This document shows, in pieces, positions 32,016 through 53,692 of a DNA stretch of 64,000 nucleotides; position 1 is the stretch's first letter; every line of letters starts with the position of its first letter. Origin of the DNA: Marinomonas sp. THO17 (GTDB lineage Bacteria > Pseudomonadota > Gammaproteobacteria > Pseudomonadales > Marinomonadaceae). The translations under genes and the position numbers were made by a program. The notes beneath the pieces were generated by a model. That model saw only the letters and a program-made list of their open reading frames with translations. It did not search any database and was not told the DNA's origin. The stretch covers positions 2,965,501-3,029,500 of the forward strand of contig NZ_AP031575.1 of the NCBI RefSeq assembly GCF_040436405.1, in the 5' to 3' direction.

Positions 32016-33533
32016 ATGCAGTCACTCTTTTTGCAACAAACTCATGATTTTCCGTTTGAAAAAATTGCTGCCATTGATCTTGGTTCTAACAGTTTTCATA
32101 TGGTGGTTGCGCAAGTGACTCATGGACAGTTGCGCATCACCAGTGAATTTGGAGAAAAAGTCCAGCTAGCAGCCGGTTTGGTAAAAGGTCACTTGGATGA
32201 GGCGTCACAACAGCGAGGATTGGAGTGTTTAGCACAATTTGCTCAAGTCATTGAGGATATGCCACCTGGTTCTGTGCGTGTGGTGGGTACTAATGCTTTA
32301 CGTGTCGCGAAAAATCGTTATGACTTTATCGGCAATGCCATGGATATTATCAGTCATCCGGTGGAAATTATTGCCGGGCGTGAAGAGGCACGACTCATTT
32401 ATGTGGGAGTGTCCAATACCATGGATCACGGTGAAGCCAAGCGGTTGGTTGTGGACATTGGAGGCGGTAGTACTGAGTTCATCATAGGTAAGCAATTGGA
32501 GCCCATTCTTACCGAAAGTCTGCATATGGGGTGTGTGAGTTTTGCTAAGCGTTTCTTTGACAATGGCATTATCACCAAGTCCAATTTTCAAAAAGCCGTT
32601 ACCGCAGCGCGACTCGAATTATTAAGCATCCAAGACGATTATCTTGATGAGGCGTGGGATATCTCGATTGGTTCATCTGGTACCATCAAAGCAGCTTTCA
32701 ATATTGTCAAAGAAAATAATTGGAGTAAGAAAGGCATTACTCCAAAAACCATCAAGCAAATTCAAAAGGCGTTGTTTCAAGCAGGGCATGCTGACCAAAT
32801 TGATTTGGTGGGGTTAAAGCCAGAACGTAAGCCGACTTTTGCTGCAGGTATGGCGATTTTGACGGCGGTCTTTGAGTGCTTTGATATCAAACAAATGGAC
32901 TTTTCAAACGGCGCCCTGAGAGAAGGTGTGTTATATGACATCATGGGACGTTATGCGGAAACGGATATTCGAGAGCGCACGGTTAACTATATGTTGAATC
33001 AATATCATATTGATACTGAGCAAGCCAAACTGGTGACTAAAACGGCTTTGTCTGCATTAGAGCAGGTCAAAGAGGCTTGGGGGTTAAGTAATATTTCCAG
33101 TGAAGACTTGCTGCGCTGGGCAGGCTTATTACATGAAGTGGGTGTCGGAATCTCCCATAGTCGTTATCACAAACACGGCGCTTACATTATCAGTGAATCG
33201 GATATGCCCGGTTTTTCTCAACAGGAACAACAGGCTTTAGCTAACCTAATTCTGCGTCATCGAAGAAAATTTAGTCAGTCATTGGGCTTTCGTTTCACCA
33301 AAAGTGATCAGCAAGATCTAGACCGTTTGTCCATTTTGCTACGACTATCCATTTTATTGCACCAGGATAGAAAGGAAGGGGATATGCCTATTTTTACGCT
33401 AAAAGCCGACGGTAAGAATTTGCATGCGGAATTTTTATCTGGATGGTTAGATAGTCGCCCTCTAACCTTGGCAAATCTACAAAGAGAAGCCGAAATGTTG
33501 GTCTCTAGTGGTTATGACTTTACTTTCGAGTAG
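32016..33533 (+). CDS. ppx: Exopolyphosphatase (Ppx/GppA family)
   Basis: Ppx (505 residues) removes terminal phosphates from polyphosphate, opposing Ppk1. The N-terminal ASKHA phosphatase domain has AAIDLGSNSFHMVVAQ, VVGTNALRVAKN, EIIAGREEARLIY and VVDIGGGSTEFIIG. The C-terminal half (about 310-500) is the HD-like domain, with LLHEVGVGISHSRYHKHGAYII. The length fits exopolyphosphatase more than the shorter GppA, but the two families overlap and pppGpp hydrolysis is possible. The gene stands alone, whereas in E. coli ppx follows ppk. It is divergent from rho. Confidence 0.93.
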   Translation: MQSLFLQQTHDFPFEKIAAIDLGSNSFHMVVAQVTHGQLRITSEFGEKVQLAAGLVKGHLDEASQQRGLECLAQFAQVIEDMPPGSVRVVGTNALRVAKNRYDFIGNAMDIISHPVEIIAGREEARLIYVGVSNTMDHGEAKRLVVDIGGGSTEFIIGKQLEPILTESLHMGCVSFAKRFFDNGIITKSNFQKAVTAARLELLSIQDDYLDEAWDISIGSSGTIKAAFNIVKENNWSKKGITPKTIKQIQKALFQAGHADQIDLVGLKPERKPTFAAGMAILTAVFECFDIKQMDFSNGALREGVLYDIMGRYAETDIRERTVNYMLNQYHIDTEQAKLVTKTALSALEQVKEAWGLSNISSEDLLRWAGLLHEVGVGISHSRYHKHGAYIISESDMPGFSQQEQQALANLILRHRRKFSQSLGFRFTKSDQQDLDRLSILLRLSILLHQDRKEGDMPIFTLKADGKNLHAEFLSGWLDSRPLTLANLQREAEMLVSSGYDFTFE

Positions 33534-33572: not shown

Positions 33573-33881
33573 TTAGCTGAGTTTTTCAATGGTACGGTAA
33601 AGCTCAGCGACTTCGTCACGTTGTAATCCGCTTACCCTTTTTGTACGACCAATGCTTGAGGAGACCTGAATAGATTCGTTGCCTTCCTCTTCGTTGGCTT
33701 TTTTGTCTTCTTGAAGCTTGTTTAATTGAGATTGGGACGAAGAGAGCAATTGTTTAGCTTGTTCTGATAAATCGACACTTGGCTCACTGTTTTGTCTGGA
33801 TTGAGACTGCGAGCGGGTTTCTACCGTTGGCTGAATTGTCGGTATGGTTAATCGATTTAGCGGTATAGATGAAATAGACAT
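33573..33881 (-). CDS. Hypothetical protein, low-complexity Ser/Gln/Glu-rich
   Basis: A 102-residue polar protein that I do not recognise. It has no signal peptide or membrane segment. The N-terminal 35 residues are rich in Ser, Thr, Pro and Gln and look disordered. VDLSEQAKQLL (about 36-46) resembles a short motif found in some flagellar or secreted proteins, then comes a Gln/Lys/Glu stretch that could form a coiled coil. The C-terminal LQRDEVAELYRTIEKLS is a probable helix. It is convergent with ppx, and its start faces a 360-base gap. The reading frame is clean, and the ATG has a GAGGTA-like site a few bases upstream. No function can be assigned. Confidence 0.55.
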   Translation of the reverse strand: MSISSIPLNRLTIPTIQPTVETRSQSQSRQNSEPSVDLSEQAKQLLSSSQSQLNKLQEDKKANEEEGNESIQVSSSIGRTKRVSGLQRDEVAELYRTIEKLS

Positions 33882-34244
33882 AGCAGTACCTCGTAAGACA
33901 CAACTCTGCTATAAGAATAGTACAAAAGTTAACTTTCTGTCGAAAATGTTGTAACTTTTTGTTATTGGACTGTAATTGCTAATTTTCGTCAAGTCAAAAT
34001 TTAATCATGTGCTTTCTTGATTGGATAAGGCGGGTTTGAAGAAATATTGATGAAAACTAATAATTATTTTGCATTCTTACTCATCATATTAGTGCCTTTG
34101 TTATATAAGGATGATATTGTTTGAGTACAGATATTGAAAAAAACGTGCATTTAACAGAGCAAAACTTCTGCTTTCTTAATGCCTTGATTGCGATGAATAA
34201 GCAGATCGCCTGTTGTAAGTAAATTGCTTGAAAAAGGATGCCAC
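33882..34244. other. Intergenic region upstream of the tubulin-like gene
   Basis: This 363-base AT-rich region divides the small hypothetical gene and the tubulin-like gene, which are divergent. It contains one possible very short hydrophobic frame (34050-34124) described separately. I see no strong palindrome. It must hold the promoter of the tubulin-like gene, but I cannot point to clear boxes. Confidence 0.5.
34050..34124 (+). CDS. Possible 24-residue membrane peptide
   Basis: A short frame encoding MKTNNYFAFLLIILVPLLYK followed by DDIV. It has a basic N-terminus, one hydrophobic span of about 12-14 residues and an acidic end, the shape of small membrane peptides. A GAAGAAA stretch upstream is only a weak ribosome site. 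It precedes the tubulin-like gene by 120 bases on the same strand. Short AT-rich DNA produces such frames by chance, so this is a candidate only. Confidence 0.2.
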   Translation: MKTNNYFAFLLIILVPLLYKDDIV

Positions 34245-36275
34245 ATGAGTCAAGACAACCTACCAATTGAACACCTCTATTTTACAGAGTCGAATTTGGA
34301 GCAAATCCTAGAAAACTTGGATGTTGTACGAAATCACATTCATCCACAAGTAGTAACAGAAGGCGCGCCTAATGTTGAACAAATTTTTCCGTCTGTTTGT
34401 CTTATTGGTTTAGGTCGTTGTGGCTCTAACATTGCGTTAGATGTAGCATCATTAGTATACGATGCACGTGCCAATTATATGCGCGAAGTTGAAAATCAAG
34501 AGTTACTGGATTCAGAGCGAGAATTTCGTCCAATGCGTTGGATTCGAAAGCATCTGCCCATTGAAGGTAAAGACGGTTTTAAACCCGTATTTTTAATTGA
34601 GCCGATTGTGCTGCTAGGTGACTTGGATAAAGACATAGAGGGTCGTATACGTTTCTCTAATCAGGAAGGACGTGAGCAGTTTCTGGAAGAGTACAAAAAA
34701 CTGCAAATCATGGACTTGTCTGAAGTGCATGCTGGTGGTGCTGGTAATGCTCCAATTTTGGGGCAATATCTGGCGAAGATTATTCTTAACAAAGATACCT
34801 CAACTTTCCGCAATGAGAACTGGAAGCACATGCATTCCTATCTAGTGGATTCTTGTGGTATTAAAGCCAACCAATCGCGTCTGTACTTCTACATCTTTAG
34901 TGCTGGCGGTGGTACAGGGTCGGGTATGGCTTCTGAATTTGGTCTGGCGCAGCAATTTTCTTACTTAAGCAAAACTTTTGATTATCGCTCTGATCAATCG
35001 CAATTGGTCGATAAGCGTCACAGTTTTGTATTTGAGCCTATCTTTACTTCTGGTATCTGTATTCTGCCAAATATCTCAGGTAAGAATGTTGAAATCTCGG
35101 AAGCCTTGCACATTAACGCTGGTCGTTTGTTGACCAAATACATCTCTGAAGAGTGGAACTTCTCTTACAACGAGGAGCGTGAGGACGACGAAGTGCCTGC
35201 GGATGTCATGGAGCGTATTCGTCCTTGGAACTCTATGATGTTGATTTCTAACGATATCATGCGTTATGCAGAGGAAGAAGATGGTGGCGATGCGGATAGC
35301 ATTGATGTGAACACTATGGAGAAATATGCGAACCAATATATTTCTCAACAGATTTTCAACATATTGACTGCTCAGGCGGTGACAACTGATTACGATGAAG
35401 AGTATTTCCGTCGTGCGGGTATCGATATTTCTGAAACCATTCGTCTTGATGCAAATGATTTGTTTATGAGTCTGGCTGGTCCTGTTGCTGTCGCTTATGC
35501 AGAGAGTGTTGTAGGGCCAGGTGTACATCAAGATATGGTTGATATTGATGACTTGTTCTGCCGTTCTATTGAATTGCCTCACTTTAATGAAGATACCTCT
35601 GCAATTGAGGGGGTGAGTGTGTTGCCAGTAGAATCTGAGCGTTATCGTCAAGCAATAAAAGATTTTCGTAAGAGCGGTTACGATGTGAGTAAGTTGAGTG
35701 ACTTACACTTCTTCAAAAACTGTTCTTCTATTGTGTCTATTATTTCCTTACCACGTGACTTCAAGCTGTCTTTCACGGCCTTGAATCGCTTGAAAATGCA
35801 CCTTAATCGTTTGTGCCCTAATACCACATTGAAGCGTTATGCTTTGGTAATAGGAGCGTCGGCTAACTTGTCCTTAACCACCTTGATTGCCAAGAGTCCA
35901 TGTTTGAGCGATGACTTCTTGACCTTGATGGTTGCTTACATGAAGCGCTGTTTTGCCACAGACGATTATCGTTACACGGATGAAGTGGATCATGCCATCA
36001 TTGATATGATTCAAACGGAAGAGTTTGATGAAAGTTTGATTGAAAAGTACTTCATGACGCATGAAAACCCAGCGAAAATTTTGGATACTAACTGGTATGC
36101 GATCAAGCCAATGTATGAGAAGAAATACCGTGAGTTGATTGATGATACTCAACAGTTTGTTTCCATTAATGATATTCGTTTGGACATCAGTAATGTGAAA
36201 AACGCGATCAAGTATCTACGCGAAATTTACCGTCATCGTATCAGTAAGACTAACGTGCTTACACTTAACGGTTAA
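34245..36275 (+). CDS. Orphan tubulin/FtsZ-superfamily GTPase-like protein
   Basis: This 676-residue cytoplasmic protein has the tubulin/FtsZ glycine-rich signature SAGGGTGSG at residues 219-227. An upstream GLGRCGSN (55-62) sits where FtsZ has its first nucleotide loop, and VHAGGAGNAP (161-170) where FtsZ has the GAGANP loop. A later LDANDLFMSLAGP segment could match the catalytic T7 loop (NxDxxD), but this is less clear. The protein is about twice the length of FtsZ, with an N-terminal extension of 50 residues and a C-terminal part of 250 I do not recognise. It is not FtsZ, TubZ or BtubA. It might belong to the FtsZ-like or Tubulin_2 groups. I chose ATG 34245 after AAAAAGGA rather than TTG 34224. 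It has its own terminator and no operon partners. Confidence 0.72.
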   Translation: MSQDNLPIEHLYFTESNLEQILENLDVVRNHIHPQVVTEGAPNVEQIFPSVCLIGLGRCGSNIALDVASLVYDARANYMREVENQELLDSEREFRPMRWIRKHLPIEGKDGFKPVFLIEPIVLLGDLDKDIEGRIRFSNQEGREQFLEEYKKLQIMDLSEVHAGGAGNAPILGQYLAKIILNKDTSTFRNENWKHMHSYLVDSCGIKANQSRLYFYIFSAGGGTGSGMASEFGLAQQFSYLSKTFDYRSDQSQLVDKRHSFVFEPIFTSGICILPNISGKNVEISEALHINAGRLLTKYISEEWNFSYNEEREDDEVPADVMERIRPWNSMMLISNDIMRYAEEEDGGDADSIDVNTMEKYANQYISQQIFNILTAQAVTTDYDEEYFRRAGIDISETIRLDANDLFMSLAGPVAVAYAESVVGPGVHQDMVDIDDLFCRSIELPHFNEDTSAIEGVSVLPVESERYRQAIKDFRKSGYDVSKLSDLHFFKNCSSIVSIISLPRDFKLSFTALNRLKMHLNRLCPNTTLKRYALVIGASANLSLTTLIAKSPCLSDDFLTLMVAYMKRCFATDDYRYTDEVDHAIIDMIQTEEFDESLIEKYFMTHENPAKILDTNWYAIKPMYEKKYRELIDDTQQFVSINDIRLDISNVKNAIKYLREIYRHRISKTNVLTLNG

Positions 36276-36290
36276 ATTGAGCAGAAGACA

Positions 36291-36329
36291 AAAAAACGCC
36301 TGTGAGGTTTCTCCTCACAGGCGTTTTTT
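36291..36329 (+). terminator. Strong Rho-independent terminator after tubulin-like gene
   Basis: A 17-base perfect stem (AAAAAACGCCTGTGAGG with its complement) around loop TTTCT, ending in eight T. It begins 15 bases after the stop of the tubulin-like gene and isolates it from trpR. Confidence 0.95.
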
Positions 36330-36370
36330 TTGTTTGAAAATTATCGATATTTTGCAGTAGGACGACTTGA

Positions 36371-36436: not shown

Positions 36437-36673
36437 ATGCAACAACTCATTGAATTTCTTAGCCAAGTAGATGATCAATCTTTGTTAGAGAAGCGTTTGC
36501 GAGCCTTGTTAACGCCGAATGAAATTAACGAGATGTTGCACCGTTTGCAGATCTTTTCCCTGTTAGAACAGGGGGTGCCACAACGAGATATAGCGAAACA
36601 GTTAGGGGTTGGTATTGCCACAGTGACGCGTGGTTCCCGAGCATTGAAGGAATTGAAAAAGAATGAGTCCTGA
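36437..36673 (+). CDS. trpR: Trp repressor
   Basis: This 78-residue protein is a short TrpR-family repressor. The conserved part LLTPNEINEMLHRLQIFSLLEQGVPQRDIAKQLGVGIATVTRGSRALK is split over the dimer core and the helix-turn-helix, and matches E. coli TrpR (QRELKNELGAGIATITRGS). The C-terminal helix of the E. coli protein is missing, so this form ends soon after the reading helix. Its last codons overlap the start of trpE by 11 bases, so the two are co-translated. The palindrome upstream suggests autoregulation and tryptophan-dependent control of trpE and trpG. Confidence 0.9.
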   Translation: MQQLIEFLSQVDDQSLLEKRLRALLTPNEINEMLHRLQIFSLLEQGVPQRDIAKQLGVGIATVTRGSRALKELKKNES

Positions 36674-38066
36674 ACAAAATAAACAACCGCCTCGCATCGA
36701 GCTACCACGTAAGCCGCAATACGTTACCATCAGTTCCGATTGCGATTTTTTTGGTTTATTTAAGAAGATAGAAAAGCGTTTTGAAAATTGCTTTATGCTG
36801 GAGTCTTTAGGGGAAGAGAGTTTTATTTCTCGTCATTCCATCATTGGCTTTGATCCAGAAAAGCTTTTATGGGCGGAGGGTAAACAGCTTTTCATTGAAG
36901 AGCGCGATGGGACGAATCAAGCCTATGAGTCGGACAATCCTTATTACTTATTGCGTAGTATCGTGCCACAAAATATTTTGTCACGAGGTTTTGCTGGTGG
37001 CTTGACGGGCTACATAGGCTACGACAGCATGAACTATTTTGAGCCGAGTTTGGATCTGCAAGCCAGTGACATGTTCGATGCATTTCGCTTTGGCTTATAT
37101 ACAGACGGATTGATTCTAGACAAGATGACGGGCGAGGTTTTCTACTTTTACTACGAAGACAATCGCCTGGATTTGGTTAATGACATGATGGCGGAAATCA
37201 CACCTGAAAACGGACCTTTGGTGGTTCGACCATTAGGTGAATCTATGACCAAAGTCGATCACGCCGAGGCGGTCGCTAAGGTAAAGCAAGACATCATTGA
37301 GGGTAAGATTTTTCAATGTGAAGTGGGCTTTAAGAAATGGTTTGAGCTGGAAGGAGACACCATCAATCTGTATGAAGAATTGCGTGAGGTTAATCCTTCG
37401 CCGCAGATGTATTACCTCAAATTTGCGCAACAGAAAGTCATAGGTGCCAGTCCTGAGTTATTGTTCCGTGTACGTCAGGGGGAAATGGAAACTTTCCCAT
37501 TAGCAGGAACGGCGAAGCGTGGTGCGGATGAAAAAGAAGACACGGCGCTGGCGCGCGCTTTGCTGAACGACCCGAAAGAAATTGCTGAACATAATATGAT
37601 AGTCGACTTGCATCGTAATGACATTGGGCGTGTGGCGCGTTTTGGTACGGTAAAAGTACGCTCGCTAATGGACATTAAACGCTTTAGTCATGTACAACAT
37701 ATTTCCAGTGAAATCGTCGGTATTATGGCGGAAGAGCATGATATGTTTTCTGCTTTAGCCAGTAACTTCCCTGCCGGTACCCTAACAGGTGCACCTAAAA
37801 TTGAGGCCATGAAAATCATCGATGATTTAGAAAGTGATGGTCGTGGTCCATACGGTGGTGCCGTTGGTCAGTTTTCTTTTAATGGAGACTGTATGTTTGC
37901 GATTCCAATTCGTACTGTGTTCGCAAAGGGGAATAAAGCCTACGTACAAACCTGCGGCGGTAATGTGTATGACTCGAATGCTGAAGACGAGTATGAAGAA
38001 ATACAACGTAAGTTTGCTGGAACTAAACGTGTATTGGACAATTTCAGTGAAGGAGCAAACAGATGA
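36663..38066 (+). CDS. trpE: Anthranilate synthase component I
   Basis: TrpE (467 residues) converts chorismate, with ammonia from TrpG, to anthranilate, the first step of tryptophan synthesis. The chorismate-binding half includes GASPELLFRV, FPLAGTAKRG, EHNMIVDLHRNDIGRV and FPAGTLTGAPKIEAMKIIDDLE, all family markers of active enzymes. The N-terminal tryptophan-sensing part has a LESLGEESFISRHSIIGFDPE stretch equivalent to the feedback site. The start overlaps trpR by 11 bases, and the stop overlaps trpG (ATGA). No trpD, trpC or other trp genes follow, so the rest of the pathway must lie elsewhere. A role in aminodeoxychorismate synthesis is less likely given trpR. Confidence 0.92.
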   Translation: MSPEQNKQPPRIELPRKPQYVTISSDCDFFGLFKKIEKRFENCFMLESLGEESFISRHSIIGFDPEKLLWAEGKQLFIEERDGTNQAYESDNPYYLLRSIVPQNILSRGFAGGLTGYIGYDSMNYFEPSLDLQASDMFDAFRFGLYTDGLILDKMTGEVFYFYYEDNRLDLVNDMMAEITPENGPLVVRPLGESMTKVDHAEAVAKVKQDIIEGKIFQCEVGFKKWFELEGDTINLYEELREVNPSPQMYYLKFAQQKVIGASPELLFRVRQGEMETFPLAGTAKRGADEKEDTALARALLNDPKEIAEHNMIVDLHRNDIGRVARFGTVKVRSLMDIKRFSHVQHISSEIVGIMAEEHDMFSALASNFPAGTLTGAPKIEAMKIIDDLESDGRGPYGGAVGQFSFNGDCMFAIPIRTVFAKGNKAYVQTCGGNVYDSNAEDEYEEIQRKFAGTKRVLDNFSEGANR

Positions 38067-51649: not shown

Positions 51650-53419
51650 TCACAATTCACCTATCATTTCTTTGCGTTCTTCCTTCGGGATTGGTTGCAA
51701 ATAGATATGATTGCCACCGGTTTCTTTGGCGTGTTTTTTGGCTTGCGCTGCCCGTTCAGCCACTTGATGGTGATTACGGCACTGATAAGGATGAACCACG
51801 CCAATGGCCAGGCTTAAGATAGGATGAAATTGATGCTCACCATGACGGTTTTTGGTCCAGACGCCGCCTTCTGCTAGGGTATCAGCAGGGTAAAAGTCAC
51901 GTACTTTGATGGCAAATTCATCGAGTATGTTCTGACATTGTTGCCGCCAGTCTTGATCACCAAAAATGACCACAAAATCATCACCACCAATGTGACCAAT
52001 AAAATTGTTATGACCTATTAAATCTTTGATGAGAGAACCGACCAATTGTATTACCGCGTCGCCCTTGGAATAACCGAAAAAGTCATTAAAGGGTTTGAAA
52101 TCGTTTAAATCAAAATAGGCAACATGGAAATCTTCACCAGATTCTAAACGCCGGCTGACTTCACGATGAATGGGAACATTACCTGGTAACATGGTCAGTG
52201 GGTTGGAATAGGTGGCGTTTTGAATTTTTAGCTCAGTAATACGTTTTAGAAGATCTCGCAGATGCCCCGTTCCTATGTACTTTCCTTCTCGAGTGACGAT
52301 GATTTCATTGTTAAGTGTGTCCGCTTCTTGATTGGTCATCATATTGGAAACACGTGACAAACTGACGTTACTTTCCACCATCAAGACATCTTCAGACAAT
52401 AGATTTGTGACTGGTTTGTGCTCGTATAAAGCGCGTCCATAGGGGGTAGAGAAGAGTTCATGCAACTGATGTCTACGGATAATGCCAAGCGGAGTGCCTA
52501 GTTCATCTAATATGGGTAAGGCAATCAAATCTGTGTGCTTTTTAAAGATCAAAGAGGCTTCGTCCAATAAGCAACTTGCTTCTAAACTGGGTGTTGGACG
52601 ACATAAGGTTTGAACTGTTTCAGCGTGGTCAATTCTAAATTGAGAGCGGCGTTGCGCTTGCTTAACCAAATAGGGGTGTGCACTAAAAGCAGGTGTTTCA
52701 GTTGGGCGGCCTAGAAAGTAGCCTTGTCCATAATCAAGGCCTATTTCAATCAGCTGATCAAGTTCTTGTTGTGTTTCAATGCCTTCAGCAATCAGAATAC
52801 AATTAAGTCGTTGCGCTATGGTTAAAATAGAGCGCACAAACTCTCGTTTTATTTCGTCTTTATCTATACCTTGAATAAAGTGTTTATCCACTTTGACAAT
52901 GTCGGGTTGCAATTCTGACCAAAGGCGCAATCCCGAATAGCCAACACCCAAATCATCAATGGCTACTTGAAAGCCCATTTTACGGTAATGGTCAACACTG
53001 CTTCTGGGCAAACCATTGTGGTCGTATGGATGTTGTTCCGACAGTTCTATGACAATATCTTGTTGATCAAGTCCGAGTTCTTTCAAAATGGCTAATGTCA
53101 TGCCAGATTGATGTTCGGGAGATCCTAACAGAGATGCACTAACATTGAGAAATAAGCGCCCTGATAAATCAAGTTTGGCAAATTTTGAAATCGCCTTTTC
53201 ACGACATAGTAACTCCAGTTTGTGAAGTAGCCCTTTGTTTTGCGCTAAGGTAAAAAGCGCATCGGGAGAAAACAGACTGGAGTTTTTCGGCCCCCGAGAT
53301 AAAGCTTCATGCCCGTAAATTTCACCACTGTTTAAATCATAGATAGGCTGAAAGTAAGGTGTGACCAAACCTTTGTTGAGTATCTTATGGAAGAGCGTGG
53401 TGTCATCAAGCTGAATCAT
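51650..53419 (-). CDS. EAL-CBS-GGDEF cyclic-di-GMP protein
   Basis: This 589-residue protein has an N-terminal EAL phosphodiesterase domain (about residues 10-245), a pair of CBS-like domains (about 270-395), and a C-terminal GGDEF domain (about 415-575). The EAL motifs EALSR, NVSASLL, DDLGVGYS, KVDKHF, AEGIET and QGYFLG keep the metal-binding residues, so hydrolysis of c-di-GMP is likely. The GGDEF signature is GGDDF, which may still work or may bind GTP as a regulator. The CBS pair would sense adenosine nucleotides. No membrane segments are seen. The order EAL before GGDEF is opposite to the usual GGDEF-EAL arrangement. It is monocistronic. Confidence 0.9.
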   Translation of the reverse strand: MIQLDDTTLFHKILNKGLVTPYFQPIYDLNSGEIYGHEALSRGPKNSSLFSPDALFTLAQNKGLLHKLELLCREKAISKFAKLDLSGRLFLNVSASLLGSPEHQSGMTLAILKELGLDQQDIVIELSEQHPYDHNGLPRSSVDHYRKMGFQVAIDDLGVGYSGLRLWSELQPDIVKVDKHFIQGIDKDEIKREFVRSILTIAQRLNCILIAEGIETQQELDQLIEIGLDYGQGYFLGRPTETPAFSAHPYLVKQAQRRSQFRIDHAETVQTLCRPTPSLEASCLLDEASLIFKKHTDLIALPILDELGTPLGIIRRHQLHELFSTPYGRALYEHKPVTNLLSEDVLMVESNVSLSRVSNMMTNQEADTLNNEIIVTREGKYIGTGHLRDLLKRITELKIQNATYSNPLTMLPGNVPIHREVSRRLESGEDFHVAYFDLNDFKPFNDFFGYSKGDAVIQLVGSLIKDLIGHNNFIGHIGGDDFVVIFGDQDWRQQCQNILDEFAIKVRDFYPADTLAEGGVWTKNRHGEHQFHPILSLAIGVVHPYQCRNHHQVAERAAQAKKHAKETGGNHIYLQPIPKEERKEMIGEL

Positions 53420-53692
53420 AATCTCAAATACATCTTAGTTAAGAAGACGATCAAGATTTTATGTCATATTTGTGACGCTTTAATGACTGCTAATTAGGGG
53501 TAAATGGGCGTTTTATCTTACATAAAAGGGCAGTAACTGAGAAAGTTAACGCTAGAATAGATCAAGGGAAAGGTAAGCAAATGATATGAAAACTGCCTGT
53601 TGCCGGATCGATTTGTTATTTTAGCCTTTCGATCATCGGAAACATCAGGTCTAACGTTACTCAATAAATAACTATTTAGTATTAAATACCTA

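Follow-up and report, generated by a model that had tools for sequence, protein, structure and literature searches.

A patchily distributed FtsZl2-family tubulin-like protein of Marinomonas and its candidate link to diguanylate cyclases

The 64,000-nucleotide stretch of Marinomonas sp. THO17 DNA analyzed here (the window) encodes a protein that, judged from its sequence, fits the FtsZl2 family on all testable points, the reference protein PFL_1302 having been compared by description. Our preferred reading, held with somewhat better than even confidence, is that FtsZl2 is an accessory tubulin-like GTPase that probably polymerizes, is not the division tubulin, and is perhaps linked to c-di-GMP. 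FtsZl2 was described in 2010 by Makarova and Koonin from Pseudomonas PFL_1302; the family has a C-terminal region of about 300 residues of unknown kind, conserved T1, T4, T6, T7, and H7, an HHpred E value of 0.0033 to PF00091, and a Marinomonas row in the alignment of Figure 1, and it coexists with FtsZ; its lack of associated genes left no clue to its function (PMC2875224). The initial annotation of the window had named the protein the best candidate for an undescribed system here, a proposal that fails on this earlier publication, which includes the C-terminal region. The open-access literature searched for the years after 2010 yielded no further FtsZl2 study; a match to the family name in PMC7327170 is the mutant label FtsZL272E, and a 2023 superfamily study left Tubulin_2 proteins aside (PMC9871819). 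A conserved tubulin-like protein that is absent from many relatives has been without an assigned task since 2010.

The gene is a 676-codon frame from ATG 34245 to TAA 36273-36275. The open reading frame listing begins seven codons upstream, at TTG 34224; ATG 34245 is conserved in 10/10 aligned Marinomonas loci. The gene and its surroundings comprise the following features:

32016-33533, plus strand: Ppx/GppA-type phosphatase (named by eye)
33573-33881, minus strand: small open reading frame between the phosphatase gene and FtsZl2
34086-34124, plus strand: possible promoter, a block around TGATATTG that is conserved upstream of the gene (10 aligned Marinomonas loci)
34245-36275, plus strand: FtsZl2-family tubulin-like protein, 676 aa (open reading frame, three loops, homologue alignment, Pfam)
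36297-36331, plus strand: intrinsic terminator, hairpin and T run (folding energy compared with shuffles)
36663-38066, plus strand: trpE (named by eye)

The gene is probably transcribed alone because a gap of about 710 bases, which contains a small opposite-strand gene, separates it from the closest same-strand upstream gene, and a very stable terminator follows. The folding energy of segment 36280-36335 is -31.1 kcal/mol (z -8.0), and 0/200 shuffles were equally stable; a simple terminator pattern scan did not return this hairpin. The TGATATTG block stands out from the otherwise variable intergenic region in the 10 Marinomonas loci and could possibly be the promoter; a promoter pattern scan gave 8 sites versus 7.2 expected, no excess. 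The short frame at 36437-36660, directly before trpE, is presumably TrpR-like (trp repressor), as judged by eye. The initial annotation is upheld here on the 676-residue length, on the gene's own strong terminator, and, by eye, on the lack of cytoskeletal neighbors, the flanks being the phosphatase gene, the small minus-strand frame, and trpE.

Conservation was analyzed in an alignment of 52 non-redundant homologues, in which 258 of the 676 positions are invariant. The segments putatively concerned with nucleotide binding and hydrolysis are, on the plus strand:

34407-34430, plus strand: T1 loop GLGRCGSN, residues 55-62 (G[LFV]GRCGSN in 52/52)
34728-34748, plus strand: T3-like HAGGAGN, residues 162-168 (HAGGxGN in 52/52)
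34899-34925, plus strand: T4 loop SAGGGTGSG, residues 219-227 (52/52; hhalign)
35250-35333, plus strand: ISND (N336-D337) to N363, matched by eye to the FtsZ S6/T6 and H7 asparagines
35448-35459, plus strand: D402-x-x-D405, putative catalytic T7 loop (the sole invariant pair among 23 [DE]xx[DE])

The three loop motifs lie at the residues first reported for them and are not chance resemblances because each is kept in 52/52 homologues; this includes GGGTGSG, whose variability among homologues would, by the initial annotation, have spoken against a tubulin-like protein. The program hhalign sets GAGNAPILG over GAGANPEVG of FtsZ, a region that we take to be loop T3. Further downstream, N336, D337, N363, D402, and D405 are invariant in FtsZl2; their correspondence to FtsZ T6, H7, and T7 was drawn by eye, and hhalign aligned none of them. 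D402 and D405 lie within RLDANDLFMSL, preceded by LISND and KYANQYISQQIF. By eye, we take RLDANDLFMSL to resemble the T7 stretch NVDFADVRTVM of Escherichia coli FtsZ, and LISND and KYANQYISQQIF to resemble its IPND and GAANDVLKGAV, respectively. That D402/D405 is the only one of the 23 [DE]xx[DE] pairs to be fully conserved across the 52 homologues, and stands where the catalytic T7 loop is expected, is a new observation. A loose ND, N, DxxD pattern, composed only after the match had been noticed, occurs in 52/52 members and in 0/646 neighbor proteins of at least 300 aa; when the window segment was shuffled, it arose in 44/20000 cases. Its strict form is missing from the FtsZ sequences (0/11) because these carry NE; with NE allowed, the pattern is found in 10/11 and also in 100/20000 shuffles. 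About 265 residues follow the putative T7 in the window protein, and Pfam and PDB sequence searches gave no credible relative for them, in line with the unfamiliar C-terminal region noted at first.

Profile comparisons give weak matches to the tubulin/FtsZ superfamily. With an E limit of 1, the Pfam families Tubulin and Tubulin_2 each match 52/52 homologues, the lowest E values being 1.9e-4 and 4.4e-4, respectively, and the window protein scores 12.6 bits against Tubulin (curated cut-off, 33) and 11.7 bits against Tubulin_2 (27), reaching neither cut-off. In hhalign comparisons with FtsZ, for which the input alignments were narrow (Neff ~2), the probability was 2-6% and the aligned span scarcely extended beyond the T3-T4 part; the full-length score was lower than that of the reversed control (26.9 versus 29.3), whereas the local scores of the full length, the N region, and the T4-T7 region exceeded all 39 shuffles. 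Residues 410-552 had appeared by eye to resemble the FtsZ C-terminal domain, a resemblance that we do not claim (hhalign score 11.7 versus a shuffle mean of 11.9). PDB sequence searches gave no match better than E 0.3. The AlphaFold2 models are unusable (pLDDT 39.4 with 15 homologues and 43.9 with 52) and do not confirm a tubulin fold; a Foldseek search with the latter model, which we disregard, returned 68 matches at E<=10 and 0 at E<=0.001. A Pfam Tubulin search of the window genome at E<=0.001 found one protein, the normal FtsZ at G000:C1:832827, with the FtsZl2 protein falling short of this limit, and FtsZ is present in 19/19 genomes searched, the window genome included. Together with the Pfam matches in all homologues, this supports the original assignment of a separate tubulin/FtsZ-superfamily protein.

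The window gene is a single-copy chromosomal member of FtsZl2, and its distribution is patchy. Matches were found in 22/56 relatives (own genome included), of which Marinomonas accounts for 21/35, and in 13/244 genomes of the order, 2/274 of the class, and 9/398 of the phylum. A second gammaproteobacterial order yielded 17/148, a larger draw with the same hits yielded 31/394, two of these 31 being decayed, and one further genome set yielded 1/3. In a search for betaproteobacterial members, 2/40 genomes had the 23S signature, and 0/33 genomes matched in the order to which one of the two belongs. The named genome collection has at least 292 places encoding a relative; the best 80 of these include Marinomonas, Pseudomonas, Rheinheimera, Alkalimonas, Alishewanella, Marinobacter, Colwellia, Paraglaciecola, Agarivorans, Cellvibrio, and Aeromonas, among other genera. 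In a tree of 44 rows, Paraglaciecola marina and genus g564, from another order, group among Marinomonas with starred support, and genome G307 falls among Pseudomonas, which argues for horizontal transfer; three loci (L028, L133, and L090) are on long branches and of uncertain placement. Decayed copies with stops and missing parts (G888:C1:2486910-2489729, locus L177; G1045:C55:32636-33110, locus L230) are a sign that the gene can be lost. Being patchy, transferred, and in places decayed, FtsZl2 is dispensable, yet it is strongly conserved where retained: identity between Marinomonas and Pseudomonas is about 68-70%, a figure that gene transfer may raise, compared with 56-63% for FtsZ between families of the order.

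By eye, most FtsZl2 neighbors are lineage-specific metabolic genes: Rheinheimera and Alkalimonas have electron-transfer flavoprotein genes there, Marinomonas has Mrp antiporter genes, Pseudomonas has an amino-acid ABC transporter, and Agarivorans and its relatives have sucCD and pfkA. In locus L034, a gene that by eye is histidine-ammonia-lyase-like adjoins FtsZl2. In family f233 (Agarivorans and relatives; L164-L169, L217, L218, and L221), a pfkA-like gene follows FtsZl2, and two upstream settings, sucCD-like and topA-like, were seen by eye.

The neighbor class seen to recur is GGDEF proteins, the only class tested by profile, which was made from 11 neighbor proteins. Gene calling at the loci relied on a simple script, and loci from a single genus are not independent. 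Among 100 loci, GGDEF proteins occupy 21/197 slots at rank 1, 9/191 at rank 2, and 8/1117 at ranks 3-10; among 79 loci with cruder gene calling, the counts are 16/156, 10/153, and (ranks 3-9) 5/811. Adding 14 of 28 later loci to the first 100 (another 13 of the 28 duplicated loci of the first set, and the decayed L230 was left out) gave 114 loci, with 33/441 slots at ranks 1-2 versus 10/1173 at ranks 3-9. Collapsed to protein families, the contrast is 6/151 near versus 4/469 far (p 0.017) for 100 loci and 6/179 versus 5/540 (p 0.033) for 114; limiting the latter to proteins no shorter than 200 aa gives p 0.052. Single-linkage clustering merged the Colwellia protein at rank 4 with the near MHYT cluster of Pseudomonas, and the G307 protein at rank 2 with the Amt cluster of Marinomonas, so that the family-level figures do not show one far case and one near case separately.

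According to Pfam, the architectures are Amt-PAS-GGDEF-EAL in Marinomonas, MHYT-GGDEF-EAL and NMT1-GGDEF in Pseudomonas, propeller-GGDEF in Alkalimonas (L050), and PAS-GGDEF in Paraglaciecola (L066, rank 2). Three of the cyclase clusters occur on either side of FtsZl2: Amt (after it in L030-L033 and L040, before it in L036 and L037), MHYT (before it in L084, L092, and others, after it in L087, L095, L096, and L099), and NMT1 (after it in L062 and L082, before it, by cluster assignment only, in L045). In Pseudomonas loci where the same MFS-like neighbor (cluster 138) precedes FtsZl2, a cyclase lies before or after FtsZl2 in some and is lacking in others (L077, L083, L089, L091, and L183). The cyclase neighborhood, which is not obligate, is suggestive and, on this gene-order evidence, would run counter to the remark of 2010 on associated genes; if confirmed, it would provide the first specific hypothesis on the role of FtsZl2.

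It is an evenly balanced question whether the cyclases lie there by coincidence, the intergenic sites being prone to insertion, without any functional connection to FtsZl2. The Amt-PAS-GGDEF-EAL fusion (for example, G000:C1:2129726-2132761 and L030:12251-15337) is present in 29/35 Marinomonas genomes, often beside Mrp antiporter genes, and these 35 genomes show no presence/absence dependence between it and FtsZl2, the cyclase being found in 18/21 genomes with FtsZl2 and 11/14 without, which favors coincidence. The Amt cyclase adjoins mnhG in 7/10 examined Marinomonas genomes without FtsZl2, two of which (G034 and G019) also have it beside ppx; therefore, FtsZl2 joined an existing site. Other insertions also exist, such as the gene in L034, and the p value is borderline. 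Against coincidence stand the three cyclase clusters found before FtsZl2 in some loci and after it in others, the several architectures, and the lack, by eye, of any other recurrent neighbor class. At the window locus, no cyclase adjoins FtsZl2; the Amt cyclase of that genome is about 870 kb away, beside mnhG, and the nearest GGDEF open frame within the window (51653-53434, minus strand) is 15 kb from FtsZl2. Among 11 later loci outside Marinomonas and Pseudomonas, a GGDEF gene lies at rank 1-2 only in that of G307 and at rank 3 in one other. The cyclase link is a lead, not a result.

Three other functions were weighed against an accessory, probably polymerizing GTPase. It appears unlikely that FtsZl2 is a GTP-dependent membrane-remodeling or vesicle protein, as Makarova and Koonin proposed for FtsZl1, a sister family in the same superfamily: that proposal rests on FtsZl1 neighbors (vWA, OmpA, kinases, and GTPase), a context that FtsZl2 lacks (PMC2875224). 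Likewise, no such recurrent neighbors were seen by eye at the FtsZl2 loci examined, although Amt, MHYT, and other membrane-sensor proteins do adjoin FtsZl2 in some lineages.

In tubulins, the T7 acidic residues act through subunit contact. Without such contact, D402/D405, invariant and located where T7 is expected, would lack a clear role, which makes it similarly improbable that FtsZl2 is a non-polymerizing GTP-binding scaffold or signaling switch with a tubulin-like nucleotide domain, as might be suggested by the family-specific inserts between the loops reported in the 2010 paper (PMC2875224). Also in favor of such a scaffold or switch, polymerization of FtsZl2 is a deduction only, and no relative of the C-terminal part is known.

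TubZ and PhuZ, which plasmids and phages encode, are accessory tubulins beside FtsZ. It is a very remote prospect that FtsZl2 is a tubulin of this type that positions DNA or phages, or a phage-defense protein: it shares the accessory, horizontally transferred character but gave, at the sensitivity used, 0 matches in 72,556 plasmid records, 50,697 phage records, and the viral contigs scanned, reached at best E 0.02 in PHROGs and E 0.17 in PADLOC, and sits at fixed chromosomal places within genera.

As an accessory polymerizing GTPase, FtsZl2 would, from its residues and known tubulin chemistry, bind GTP and form a head-to-tail polymer in which T7 of one subunit completes the active site of its neighbor, so that GTP would be hydrolyzed in the filament. 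The roughly 265 residues after T7 could then serve as a coupling module joining the filament to a partner. That the partner would be c-di-GMP signaling enzymes is the weakest step, a guess made because different diguanylate cyclases adjoin FtsZl2 in several lineages. We regard as doubtful the full scheme in which FtsZl2 is cytomotive, its filaments serving to position membrane-bound c-di-GMP enzymes or to regulate them, with the gene an accessory, transferable trait and cyclases recruited lineage by lineage; if true, FtsZl2 would be a tubulin dedicated to second-messenger signaling. If filaments form, many Pseudomonas and marine bacteria would have a second, unstudied tubulin cytoskeleton.

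Compared with known systems, the window protein is like FtsZ in loop order and, by eye, in the ND, N, and DxxD positions, and unlike it in length (676 versus about 380-420 residues), in the inserts between loops, and in being encoded by a dispensable gene outside the division cluster, with one FtsZ present besides. Unlike TubZ and PhuZ, FtsZl2 has no plasmid or phage copy in the collections searched. It resembles FtsZl1 and the Tubulin_2 proteins in the weak Tubulin_2 match of 52/52 homologues; it differs from FtsZl1, for which a coiled coil and vWA, OmpA, and kinase neighbors are described (PMC2875224). With the FtsZl2 family, it shares the GGGTG(S/T)G loop (here GGGTGSG), the conserved T1, a long C-terminal region without known relatives, occurrence in both Pseudomonas and Marinomonas alongside FtsZ, and the lack of a fixed operon, and no sequence difference from the family description was found. 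To that description, the present analysis adds the invariant D402/D405, decay, transfer, and, suggestively, the cyclase neighborhood.
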